Origin: Bacteroidota bacterium
GTDB taxonomy: Bacteria; Bacteroidota; Bacteroidia; JABEUT01
DNA: 64,000 nucleotides
Direction: 5' to 3'
Assembly: GCA_013288345.1 (NCBI GenBank)
Contig: JABDCA010000012.1
Location: forward strand, 1 to 64,000
Position numbers and translations under genes: made by a program
Shown: in pieces, positions 17,541 through 24,758 of the stretch
Layout of the letters: every line of letters starts with the position of its first letter
How positions within the stretch are numbered: position 1 is the stretch's first letter
Notes under the pieces: model-generated
What the model saw: the letters and a program-made list of their open reading frames with translations, nothing else
What the model was told of the DNA's origin: nothing
Databases searched by the model: none

Positions 17541-20500
17541 ATGGCTTCTTCATCAAGAGAACAAAAACAGAGGAGTAACTTTACTAAAGTAACGATCAGC
17601 CTTGCCTCGCCAGAGAGGATGCTGAACCGTTCGCATGGTGAGGTTTTAAAGCCTGAAACTATAAACTACCGTACCTACAAGCCTGAGCGCGATGGTTTGT
17701 TCTGCGAGCGTATTTTTGGTCCTACCAAGGATTGGGAATGTCATTGCGGAAAATACAAACGTATTCGTTATAAAGGCATTATTTGCGACCGTTGCGGTGT
17801 TGAAGTTACAGAGAAAAAAGTACGTCGTGAGCGTATGGGACACATTTCATTAGTGGTTCCTGTAGCACACATTTGGTATGTACGTTCTTTACCAAGTAAA
17901 ATTGGTTACTTACTCGGCCTTTCTACCAAAAAACTTGAAATGGTGGTGTATTATGAAAAATACATTGTTATCCAGGCTGGTATTAAGGAATCTGAAGGCA
18001 TTAAACATCAGGACTTCCTTAGCGAAGACGAGTATTTAAAATTACTCGATACCCTTCCTAAAGAAAATCAACATTTAGATGATAACGACCCAGCCAAGTT
18101 TATTGCTAAAATGGGTGGCGAAGCTTTATTTGAACTGTTAAAGCGTATTGACCTTGAAGCACTCGCTTATGAACTGCGTCATAAAGCAAATACCGAAACT
18201 GCACAACAACGTAAGAATGAAGCCTTGAAGAGGTTACAAGTTGTTGAAGCGTTCCGCAGAGCTAATACACACGTTGAAAACCGTCCTGAATGGATGGTGC
18301 TTAAAGTGTTGCCTGTAATTCCGCCTGAATTGCGCCCATTGGTGCTTTTAGATGGTGGCAGGTTTGCCACATCAGATTTGAATGACTTATACCGTCGTGT
18401 AATTATACGTAACAACCGTTTAAAGAGGCTCATCGAGATCAAAGCTCCTGAGATCATCCTCCGTAACGAAAAACGTATGTTACAGGAATCGGTAGATGCA
18501 TTACTTGATAATTCACGTAAATCGACCGCTACAAAAACCGAATCGAACAGAGCGCTTAAATCACTTGCTGACAGCTTAAAAGGTAAGCAAGGACGTTTCC
18601 GTCAAAACTTACTCGGTAAACGTGTTGACTATTCTGCACGTTCGGTAATTGTTGTAGGCCCTGAATTGAAATTGCACGAGTGTGGTCTTCCAAAGGACGT
18701 AGCTCTTGAGCTTTTCAAGCCATTTGTGGTTTGTAAAATTATTGAAAGAGGAATTGTTAAAACCGTAAAATCTGCACGTAAGCTGGTTGACCGTAAGGTT
18801 GCAGCTGTGTGGGATATACTTGAAAACGTAATTAAAGGCCACCCTGTATTGCTGAACCGTGCTCCAACATTGCACCGTCTCTCCATACAAGCGTTCCAGC
18901 CTAAACTTATAGAAGGTAAAGCAATACAGTTGCACCCGCTTACATGTACAGCGTTCAACGCTGACTTTGACGGTGACCAAATGGCGGTTCACTTACCATT
19001 GGGTAGCTCTGCTGTATTAGAAGCTCAGCTTTTAATGCTTGCCTCACACAACATTTTGAACCCGGCTAATGGTGCGCCTATTACCGTTCCTTCTCAGGAT
19101 ATGGTACTAGGTTTGTATTACATTACCAAATCGAAGAGAAGCACCAAAGAACAAAAAGTACTTGGTGAAGGTTTAGTATTCTACTCTGCTGAAGAAGCTA
19201 TCATTGCTTTCAACGAGAAGAAAGTTGAACTGCATGCTCACGTTAGGGTTAAAACAACTGTAAGAGAAAAAGATCAGTTGGTAGACAAGCTTCTTGAAAC
19301 CAGCCTTGGCAGAATTATATTCAACCAGGTTGTGCCTAAAGAAATGGGCTTTATCAATGAACTTTTAACCAAGAAGAACTTACGTGATATTATTGCGGAA
19401 GTACTTAAAGCAGCGGGAATGGCTAAAACAGCTAAGTTCCTGGATGATATTAAGGACATTGGTTACCATTATGCATTTAAGGGCGGATTATCATTCAACC
19501 TGAACGACGTTATCATTCCTGCCGATAAGGAGAAGATGATTGCGGATGCTAAGGGACAAATTGAAGAAGTATCGAATAACTATAACATGGGTTTTATTAC
19601 CAACAATGAAAGGTATAACCAGGTTATTGATATTTGGACACACACCAACTCTAAAATTACCAAGAAGGTAATGGATCAGTTGAGCAGCGACCGTCAAGGG
19701 TTCAATGCAATTTACATGATGTTGGATTCTGGTGCGAGGGGTTCGAAAGAACAGATCCGTCAGCTTTCTGGTATGCGTGGTCTGATGGCTAAGCCTCAAA
19801 AATCGGGCGCTACCATGCAGGAAATTGTGGAAAATCCGGTTATATCGAACTTTAAAGAAGGACTTTCTATACTTGAGTATTTTATTTCGACCCATGGTGC
19901 ACGTAAAGGATTGGCGGATACAGCGCTGAAGACAGCGGATGCCGGTTACTTAACACGTCGTTTGGTTGACGTATCACAAGACGTTATTATTACCGGTGTT
20001 GACTGTGGTACCCTTCGTGGCCTTACAGCAGCTACCTTACGTAAAAATGACGAAGTAGTAGAAACATTATATGATAAAATTTTAGGCCGCGTTAGCTTGC
20101 ATGATGTACACCATCCTGCAACAGGCGAGCTTATTATAACTGCAGGTGAAGAAGTTACCGAATTCCATGCAGATAAAATTAAGAATTCACCAATTGAAAG
20201 TGTTGAAATACGTTCGGTGCTTACCTGCGAAATGAAAACAGGTGTTTGCGCTAAATGTTATGGACGCAATCTTTCTACCGGTAGAATTGTACAAAAAGGT
20301 GAAACAGTTGGTGTAATTGCAGCTCAGTCAATTGGTGAGCCGGGTACACAGCTTACACTTCGTACATTCCACGTTGGTGGTACAGCATCAAACATCTCTG
20401 CTTCATCGAAAATTGAAGCCAAGTATGATGGTATTGTAGAAATGGAAGAAGTAAGGACAGTAACTCGTAAGGGCGCTGATGGTAATAAGGTAGAAGCGGT

Positions 20501-21845
20501 TATATCGCGTTCTGCTGAGTTAAGGGTTGTAGATAAGAATACAGGTCTTGTGCTTACCACGGCTAACGTTCCTTATGGTTCGCAATTGTATACCAAGAAC
20601 AAAGCTTCGGTTAAAGCCGGTGAACTGCTTTGCGATTGGGATCCGTACAATGCTGTTATTATCTCTGAGTTCTCAGGTAAAACCGAATTCGAATACATTG
20701 AAGAAGGTGTTACTTTCCGCGAAGAATCAGATGAACAAACAGGCTTTAAGGAAAAGGTTATTATTGAAAGCAAGGATAAAACCAAGAGCCCTATCATTAA
20801 AGTTGTTAAAGGAAAAGAAACACTTAAATCATATAACATACCTGTTGGATCGCATATTATTACAGGCGATGGCAGCAGCGTAGAAGCAGGCCAGATATTG
20901 GTAAAAATACCTCGTATCTCCGGTAAATCGGGTGATATTACAGGTGGTTTACCACGTGTAACAGAATTGTTTGAAGCACGTAATCCTTCAAACCCTGCTG
21001 TAGTTAGTGAAATTGACGGTGTAATATCGTTTGGTAAGATTAAGAGAGGTAACCGCGAGGTTATGGTAGAATCGAAGAATGGTAATAAGAAGACCTATTT
21101 GGTTCCGCTTTCTAAACACATACTTGTACAGGAGAACGACTTTGTGAAGACAGGAGAGCCATTATCTGATGGCGCAGTAACCCCTGCTGATATATTGGCG
21201 ATTAAAGGCCCTACATCAGTACAGGAATACTTAGTGAATGAAATTCAGGAAGTATACCGCTTACAAGGTGTGAAGATCAACGACAAGCACTTTGAAGTGA
21301 TTGTTCGTCAGATGATGAGAAAAGTGGAAATAGAAGATCCGGGAGATACCAACTTCTTAGAAAGACAATTGGTTACCAAGATGGAGTTTATGAATGCCAA
21401 TGATGATCTGTACGGTAAAAAGGTTATTATTGACGCAGGAGACACCATTATGTATAAGGTGAGCGAGCTTGTTAATGCACGTAAGTTAAGGGACGAGAAC
21501 ATGCGCCTGAAACGCGAAAGCAAGAAACAAATTCAGTTCAGGGATGCTATTCCTTCTACATCGAACCCAATACTGCAAGGTATAACACGTGCTTCGCTGC
21601 AAACAGAAAGCTTTATTTCGGCTGCATCATTCCAGGAAACTGTAAGGGTGCTGAACGAAGCAGCTATCGGCGGAAAGGTGGATTACTTAGCAGGCTTGAA
21701 AGAAAACGTTATCGTGGGTCACTTAATACCGGCTGGTACAGGTTTACGCGAATACGAGAAGCTTATTGTTGGTTCTCTGGAGGAATATCAACGCCTCATG
21801 GAAAGCAAACAAGAGAAAGAGCTTGTGGAAGAAGACGCAAAGTAA
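17541..21845 (+). CDS. rpoC: RNA polymerase beta' subunit
   Basis: A 1,434-residue protein of normal length for Bacteroidota. Visible parts are the N-terminal zinc finger ([20 protein letters not shown]), the catalytic [12 protein letters not shown] loop with three Asp that hold Mg2+, the bridge/trigger region ([19 protein letters not shown]), and the second zinc site ([18 protein letters not shown]). It forms the active site with RpoB. Transcription ends at a strong hairpin 25 bases after the stop. No frame problem is seen. Confidence 0.99.
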
Positions 21846-21867: not shown

Positions 21868-21897
21868 AAAGTCCCGCAGCAATGCGGGACTTTTTTG
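21868..21897 (+). terminator. Rho-independent terminator after rpoC
   Basis: GTCCCGCA (21871-21878) pairs with TGCGGGAC (21883-21890) and six T follow, with a matching A run before the stem, so it may work in both directions. Confidence 0.92.
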
Positions 21898-21941
21898 TTT
21901 ATGCCACTTTCACATAACTTATGTAAAGTGTAGTTTTATTT

Positions 21942-22025
21942 GGGCGTTCCCCTCCTGCGTCGGGGCGGGCTATCCGCTATTACTCCTCGCTACGCTGCGG
22001 GGTAGCCGCTTCTATCCCTAACGCA
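21942..22025 (+). repeat. 84-nt structured, tRNA-like dispersed repeat (GGGCGTT...AACGC type)
   Basis: The ends GCGTT (21944-21948) and AACGC pair. Inside are a CCCC/GGGG hairpin (CCCCTCCTGCGTCGGGG), a GCGG/CCGC hairpin, and CCTCGC/GCGGGG. The end GCTTCTATCCCTAACGC resembles a T arm plus acceptor. From memory, similar intergenic elements recur in many Bacteroidota genomes without annotation. No coding frame of note crosses it. Whether it is transcribed is unknown. Confidence 0.6.
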
Positions 22026-22057
22026 AACAGCCCAGGGGTTAAAAAAATTAAACTTGG

Positions 22058-22076
22058 CATGCTGAGCCTGTCGAAG
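22058..22076. repeat. Short dispersed repeat word (CATGCTGAGCCTGTCGAAG)
   Basis: CTGAGCCTGTCGAAG is a word I know as a widespread intergenic repeat in many bacteria. Only one copy is in this window, so the call rests on recognition, not on repetition here. Confidence 0.35.
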
Positions 22077-22112
22077 TATCCTCCTTTTTTGGGTAAGTAT
22101 TAATGCTTTTTG

Positions 22113-22125: not shown

Positions 22126-22758
22126 GTGAATAAGGAGAAAGAAAATAAAAAGAATAATACGCTTAACTGGCGCGATTACCTGCTGTTGGCGGGCTTTATC
22201 ATTGTATTCTACTTCTACAAAGATTTTCATGAAGGTATTTTAAACTACCCCGATTATTTGCGTTATAGCGCATGGGTAGTGCTGTTTGTTGTAATAGTGG
22301 CACTACGCATCAAAAGGTTTGCAGCAAGCTATGCAGCCATGCCCGCAATGAGCGAGCGCTTGTTTTATGCTGCACTCAGCCTTGCAGGAGTATTTATTGT
22401 AACCGTTATGGCAACAGGCATATTACTTAGCCCTTTTAATTATTACAACCGGCATATAGCAGCCCAAAGCCCTGCAGATACGGTCCGTTGCAACATTGAT
22501 GAGGCGTACATTGGCCATGCTACAGCAGATGGCCGCGAGCCAAATACAATTAAATATCATTTTATGGGCCAACCCGATTCGCTGCTAACGCCTACTGAAA
22601 CGCCGCTTATAGCCAATATGCATGCAATGCATACGTACGCTCATTTTAAGTTGGTATTAGCCACACACAAGGCTTTACTAGGCTCTTATTGGCTTCAGTC
22701 GTGGAGCATAGAAGAACAGCGAGATTCTTTAGCGCCTGAAATAAAGCCTCACAAGTAG
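22126..22758 (+). CDS. Hypothetical inner-membrane protein
   Basis: A 210-residue protein from a GTG start. Charged N-terminus (MNKEKENKKNNTLNWRD), then three hydrophobic helices: YLLLAGFIIVFYFY, YSAWVVLFVVIVALRI and LFYAALSLAGVFIVTVMATG. The remaining 90 residues are soluble with a His-rich stretch (ANMHAMHTYAHFKL). I do not recognise a family. It is a single gene between the rpoC terminator and the rRNA promoters; no obvious terminator follows, so some transcription could enter the rRNA leader. Confidence 0.65.
   Translation: MNKEKENKKNNTLNWRDYLLLAGFIIVFYFYKDFHEGILNYPDYLRYSAWVVLFVVIVALRIKRFAASYAAMPAMSERLFYAALSLAGVFIVTVMATGILLSPFNYYNRHIAAQSPADTVRCNIDEAYIGHATADGREPNTIKYHFMGQPDSLLTPTETPLIANMHAMHTYAHFKLVLATHKALLGSYWLQSWSIEEQRDSLAPEIKPHK

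Positions 22759-23231: not shown

Positions 23232-24758
<1,527 letters not shown>

Follow-up and report, generated by a model that had tools for sequence, protein, structure and literature searches.

We propose that the 83-nt element behind rpoC in the window (the whole stretch of 64,000 nt of Bacteroidota DNA that was analysed) belongs to a large family of small non-coding DNA elements which includes Flavo-1, spreads horizontally and acts as a signal in single-stranded DNA (ssDNA), its chromosomal copies being insertions. As a whole, this statement has in our judgement an even chance of being right. The part of it which says that these are dispersed DNA elements is well supported and, taken by itself, quite probable; that the signal starts a complementary strand is put forward tentatively.

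The element is located between rpoC and a 210-aa ORF (22126-22758), beyond which an rRNA operon starts at 23235. The first-pass annotation had placed it correctly but had assigned it 84 nt (21942-22025); the conserved core ends at 22024, and the flank begins with base 22025. Read on the + strand, the core runs from GGGCGTT to CCCTAACGC, and on the - strand from GCGTTAGGGAT to AACGCCC. The strong terminator reported ahead of it was found between the rpoC stop and the element. The annotated features are as follows.

21942..22024, - strand (Flavo-1-like form): 83-nt element core, ~38 copies in the genome; 102.4 bits with covariance model R1 on the - strand
21944..21948, unstranded: closing stem P1, 5′ side on + (GCGTT), partner of 22020-22024 in 24/24 aligned copies
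22020..22024, unstranded: closing stem P1, 3′ side on + (AACGC); a compensated version, GCGTC/GGACGC, occurs in microvirus MG945641
21950..21964, unstranded: arm P2, a short CCC/GGG hairpin; loop length and sequence vary among copies, and 3/3 pairs covary phylum-wide
21967..22018, unstranded: long arm P3 with a GGG/CCC base, two symmetric 3x3 internal loops (GNA/GNA on -) and a variable tip
21939..21941, + strand: conserved 5′ flank TTT (ATTT phylum-wide), a possible insertion target or P1 extension
22025..22027, + strand: conserved 3′ flank RAA, from the flank comparison of copies
21870..21896, + strand: rpoC intrinsic terminator, separate from the element, read from the sequence as AGTCCCGCAgcaaTGCGGGACTTTTTT
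17541..21845, + strand: rpoC, the upstream neighbour, a 1434-aa ORF with its stop at 21845; identity read from the sequence

Further dispersed repeats of this genome, short ones of the TGCTGAGCCTGTCGAAGTATC type and of the GTCATTGCGAGGAACGAAGCAATC type, occur near many copies, including positions 22056-22081 of the window.

The genome to which the window belongs (2.99 Mb searched, 90 contigs, 86.7% complete) contains about 38 copies of the element (46 BLAST pieces; 38 covariance-model matches), while the chance expectation for the pattern GGGCGTT..CCCTAACGC in the window is 0.00 occurrences. Nine of ten relatives contain 2-45 copies each, which brings the total for the family to 10 of 11 genomes with the element. 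A genome-wide pattern scan returned at least 118 stretches and, among the matches listed, almost all are from Bacteroidota by record title. These numbers bear out the suggestion of a mobile non-coding repeat that occurs between genes in many Bacteroidota and mostly goes without annotation.

Both ends (GGGCGTT and CCCTAACGC) are common to the copies of this genome, while the interior differs by swapped or inserted hairpins. The first arm reads CCCCTCxTxCCTCGGG, CCCCCGATGCACGTGGGG, or CCCCTGAAGT..ACTTCAGGG. Some copies contain an optional inner palindrome, CCTGTCTGCCGACAGGCAGG, and some an optional module of ~50 nt, ACGGCGAAGCCCTCATGAGTTC..ACGAATAAT, ahead of the 3′ end; the smallest copy (locus L037) has only 54 nt. 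In six loci (L013, L014, L015, L029, L031, L036) the palindrome is found at one and the same spot, after GTCGGG. It is perhaps a small repeat nested inside the element.

A second dispersed repeat of ~65 nt, GGCACGTGAGGTGAARAG..GATGATAGG..TGACACATAGATGCAAAGGATTGTGCC, was encountered at L003:1594 (-), L009:1594, L031:5933 and L116:596 (-), and at about 50 places in relatives G002 and G007. It often follows the element on its 3′ side, at a distance of 10-40 nt and in a fixed orientation, and it also occurs alone. Rfam does not match it in those loci that were scanned. Its reverse reading is similar to a sigma-54 promoter whose spacing is 11 rather than 10 bases.

The conserved fold of the element is a three-way junction. 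In an alignment of 24 copies (A1), stem P1 (GCGTT/AACGC), stem P2 (CCC/GGG) and the long arm form a consistent fold in which 98% of the cells are paired. There are 29 double-changed cells, compared to 9.3 in shuffles, and the covariation score is 0.178 versus 0.077, with none of 500 shuffles as high and far lower values for slid partners. The paired ends, which had been recognized at first pass, persist in all 24 copies, one of which carries a UA-to-GC double change. In a phylum-wide alignment of 67 copies from many Bacteroidota (A3), double changes affect 15 of 22 pairs, and 99 double-changed cells were counted where 25 are expected (0 of 500 shuffles); the copies had been fitted to the model, so that this alignment leans towards it. 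The double changes mostly convert one Watson-Crick pair into another. By single-sequence folding energy, the window copy does not stand out from its shuffles (z 0.22), and the other copies, on both strands, are on average no better. The alignment of the opposite strand (A2) gives the same structure, with a consensus energy of -20.4 on the - strand and -17.9 on the + strand; the internal loops are GNA/GNA on the - strand (GNAGCGGA twice) and pyrimidine-rich on the + strand.

Three internal hairpins had been described, but the copies show two arms, a variable short hairpin and one long arm with symmetric loops. A tRNA-like outline with a T-arm-like part, or a tRNA-derived element, can be dismissed together with tmRNA, as all seven tRNAs that ARAGORN predicts in the window are elsewhere, the Rfam tRNA model gives no match at the element and the covariation-based fold has no cloverleaf. 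The first-pass annotation had named a single occurrence devoid of covariation as the outcome that would speak against its proposal; what we see is the opposite, ~38 copies and covariation above 500 shuffles.

At curated thresholds, Rfam has no match at the element. In a permissive search, Flavo-1 (RF01705) matches the - strand (22044-21959, model positions 1-76) with 29.8 bits (E 1.1e-4), which does not reach its gathering threshold of 42 bits. Other copies of this genome score 35-38 bits (the best of 13 own loci scanned has 38.3), a Flavo-1 search of the genome gave 10 matches (best E 7.2e-7), and the copy on a filamentous phage contig (L290) exceeds the threshold with 44.9 bits. Since its score stayed below the curated threshold, we describe the element as a sub-threshold variant from the same superfamily as Flavo-1. 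The two are alike in aligning over the whole model, in having the same long hairpin with GNA/GNA internal loops, in occurring in Bacteroidota and in their high copy number. They differ in that the copies described here reach only ~30-38 bits and have two features that the Rfam model lacks, an outer stem (GCGTT/AACGC) and a second arm.

Copies of the element clearly come and go between related genomes. The L028 site is occupied in two genomes and empty in another whose flanks can be aligned, G003 has no copy at the L004 site, and at the L005 site a relative bears a copy in opposite orientation, although none of these comparisons yields a base-exact empty site. Downstream of rpoC, the DNA of the five relatives in which it was readable is different and does not contain the element. 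When sorted by their orientation to the genes on either side, the copies fall into four classes of 11, 9, 8 and 6 in this genome and 19, 13, 11 and 8 in the phylum-wide set, based on ORFs from a simple longest-ORF rule; a long ORF is overlapped in 1 of 62 cases. Outside the core, clear conservation is restricted to TT/ATTT on the left and RAA on the right (RAA in the own genus). Target-site duplications of 2 to 11 nt were not found around the copies of this genome, and neither a conserved promoter-like block upstream nor a conserved terminator or T-run downstream was seen across copies.

The element is also carried by plasmids and ssDNA phages and with these reaches a second bacterial phylum. 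It was found in 59 plasmid records, mainly from Bacteroides and Phocaeicola; 48 of these plasmids are conjugative, and the listed copies are 75-84% identical. An example is p5482, with a copy at 18644-18725. The DNA shared by p5482-like plasmids (query 687-884) stops where the element ends (883), and other plasmids resume at 889/890; therefore, the end of the element is a junction. A 53-nt core query has weak single-piece matches to plasmids from Moraxella, Acinetobacter, Shewanella and Vibrio. Among these gammaproteobacterial matches, only those in Moraxella pMOV1 (two copies, the full one with 52 bits) and Shewanella pS19501 (three copies, 30.6 bits) could be verified both in the sequence itself and with the model; both have antirestriction genes in the region. 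In pMOV1 of the gammaproteobacterium Moraxella ovis (L270:1507-1663, L275:6735), the long arm is a hairpin of ~110 nt (TGAC...GTCA) close to the antirestriction gene.

Phages with the element include the inoviruses Dulem 60, 62 and 63 and the microvirus MG945641 (a record marked UNVERIFIED), where a copy with compensated P1 occupies the gap behind VP2. Within IMG/VR, it is found on a filamentous phage with secretin and a GPA-type Rep (L290), an inovirus with Zot, Rep_trans and TspB (L291), a microvirus with Phage_F (L301) and a contig with ArdA (L280). Nearly all share the order GGGCGTT, short hairpin, GTCGGGCTWT, variable arm and AATCCCTAACGC. Bacteriophage sp. MT837462 (7.2 kb), considered as an ssDNA phage, looked like a host fragment and was left out of the count.

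At least 11 viral contigs have the start of the core 0-17 nt past the stop of a gene for 490-565 aa, in sense orientation. The genes in question are homologous to one another (~20-41% identity), and several have weak terminase matches (PHROG 2 or Terminase_6N). Contigs with the core behind a terminase-like gene are L255, L278, L279, L285, L286, L289, L293, L297, L300 and L304. This fixed spot is not fully explained by any model that we considered.

The Flavo-1-like form is on the coding strand in L290, L291, L301 and Dulem 60/62, and hence on the virion strand; in microvirus MG945641 it is on the opposite strand. For L280, pMOV1 and pS19501, genes from the antirestriction region, which are of leading-region type, have it on their template strand. 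By the leading-region rule for the transferred strand (PMC11541004), this template strand should be the transferred strand, as deduced from the orientation of neighbouring genes rather than from a mapped oriT. The strand sample is small, with Dulem genomes and repeated plasmid copies that are not independent of each other.

We suggest that the conserved strand, which is the - strand here, works as folded ssDNA. On replicons with a single-stranded stage (conjugating plasmids, inoviruses, microviruses) it would be a signal for replication or priming proteins of the host and would most likely start the complementary strand, similar to an ssi or primosome assembly site. Chromosomal copies such as that after rpoC would then be insertions left by the spread, with no promoter of their own and probably no gene-specific role. 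We infer that such a mechanism fits the ssDNA phages, the plasmid regions and the strand pattern best. Several observations speak against it. No enzyme that moves or binds the element was identified, and the Y1/RAYT genes are unlinked. The orientation in MG945641 is reversed. From a role in starting a strand on ssDNA, one would not predict that the core follows terminase-like genes at 0-17 nt, as it does in diverged dsDNA phages. In three closed genomes, with the origin placed at dnaA and the terminus assumed opposite, Flavo-1 copies show no preference with respect to the replication fork (leading/lagging 49:41, p 0.46), while insertion into lagging-strand ssDNA would usually give one.

This lack of fork-strand bias also weakens the foremost alternative, a selfish non-autonomous transposable element (MITE/REP-like) which an HuH or other recombinase would move in trans in the form of a single-strand intermediate and for which ssDNA replicons are good targets. 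We consider it rather unlikely, even though it would account for the dispersal, presence and absence between genomes, the missing target duplication, the (A)TTT left flank, the plasmid boundary at the element end and the modular loops. RAYTs of subclass 2.6 from Bacteroidetes, which are reported to be accompanied by atypical structured repeats (PMC6006769), also argue for it; however, those genes resembling subclass 2.6 that we read are not flanked by the element. Of 53 genomes tested, 38 contain Y1_Tnp (RAYT/IS200) genes, yet R1 matches are near only 2 of 51 Y1 loci, and Y1_Tnp gave no match in the Flavo-1-rich genomes G094 and G148. Neither of the two Y1 genes of the own genome, which are of the YIxKQEEHH type, has an element nearby. 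Mobilisation by a REP/RAYT system was rejected on the basis of these linkage data and as there is no GTAG/GTGG foot at a single hairpin. While dispersed, structured, intergenic and of high copy number like the repeats of such systems (PMC6006769), the element differs by its larger three-way junction, by having no GTAG-type foot and by not lying beside the tested Y1 genes. With respect to an IS200/IS605-type parent, Y1_Tnp is the sole enzyme type tested; it is not linked, and there is no target duplication. The transposable-element reading also leaves unexplained the position next to terminase-like genes and the core that is kept across phyla. Integron attC sites were dismissed by polarity: the element ends in GTT...AAC and attC in AAC...GTT.

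One Y1 gene of this genome (L039:1290-2000, reverse complement) is flanked by several CACGACCTTTAGGTCGTG palindromes (CACGACC..GGTCGTG), which are candidates for its REP set.

That the element is a genuine small RNA or a cis-acting RNA element, as Rfam classes Flavo-1, appears improbable to us, and our evidence points to a DNA element more than to an RNA gene. Flavo-1 was proposed in Bacteroidetes as a probable RNA that is not cis-regulatory (Weinberg et al. 2010, PMC2864571) and has been ranked among the most abundant bacterial small-RNA families (PMC9029176). The GNA/GNA internal loops of the - strand are of a kind that is stable in RNA, the consensus energy of this strand is slightly better, some 5′ transcribed regions of F. 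psychrophilum overlap Flavo-1 (PMC9723704), and in dsDNA phages the + form is sense behind terminase-like genes. Against this, Flavo-1 matches in the F. psychrophilum transcriptome are sense, antisense and, for many, outside transcribed regions (PMC9723704), orientation to genes is random, and a conserved promoter or terminator was not seen; the window copy is behind a strong terminator at a position that is not conserved. For the structured RNA considered at first pass, the structure is real by covariation, while the Rfam family on the other strand, the mixed orientation and the missing conserved promoter make an RNA less probable.

The idea to which we give the least weight is a phage packaging or terminase-associated site that was scattered by prophages. 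The core close behind terminase-like genes would suit it, and inoviruses also require a structured packaging signal, but several copies are on conjugative plasmids, the chromosomal copies are far from phage genes and the orientation differs among phage classes, so that we regard it as very improbable.

Returning to the ssDNA signal, its most far-reaching form would state that Flavo-1 is no RNA family. It would instead be a signal by which host proteins start the complementary strand, or transcription, on ssDNA, common to Bacteroidota chromosomes, inoviruses, microviruses and conjugative plasmids from two phyla; it would have spread between replicons as a portable minimal origin, and the chromosomal copies would be its footprints. 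We regard this as possible rather than likely. The role of Flavo-1 has so far been unexplained, and if the fold is a portable ssDNA signal, the long-standing annotation is wrong in kind.

Known signals of this type provide a comparison. The primosome assembly site of phiX174 is located in the F-G gap, and the primosome sites of phiX174 and ColE1 share an AAGCGG motif. The virion strand of phiX174 reads GAAGCGGTAAAA in the F-G gap where this element family has GNAGCGGA, which is a resemblance only. The motif is just partly kept in the family (GNAGCGG), the phiX174 F-G region and ColE1 have no scoring R1 match, and none of 20,395 E. coli records contains the core; the partial motif and the E. 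coli result count against our proposal. Dozens of chromosomal copies are atypical for such sites, and the Frpo ssDNA promoter has -35/-10 boxes in a folded ssDNA stem, which were not noticed in the element consensus. The ssi/primosome assembly sites (phiX174 F-G, ColE1, ICEBs1 sso, PMC4595007) and Frpo (PMC11541004) are, like this element, structured ssDNA signals associated with ssDNA phages or plasmid leading regions. If the proposal is true, the element would be a compact candidate for the second-strand start of ssDNA replicons outside E. coli-type systems.
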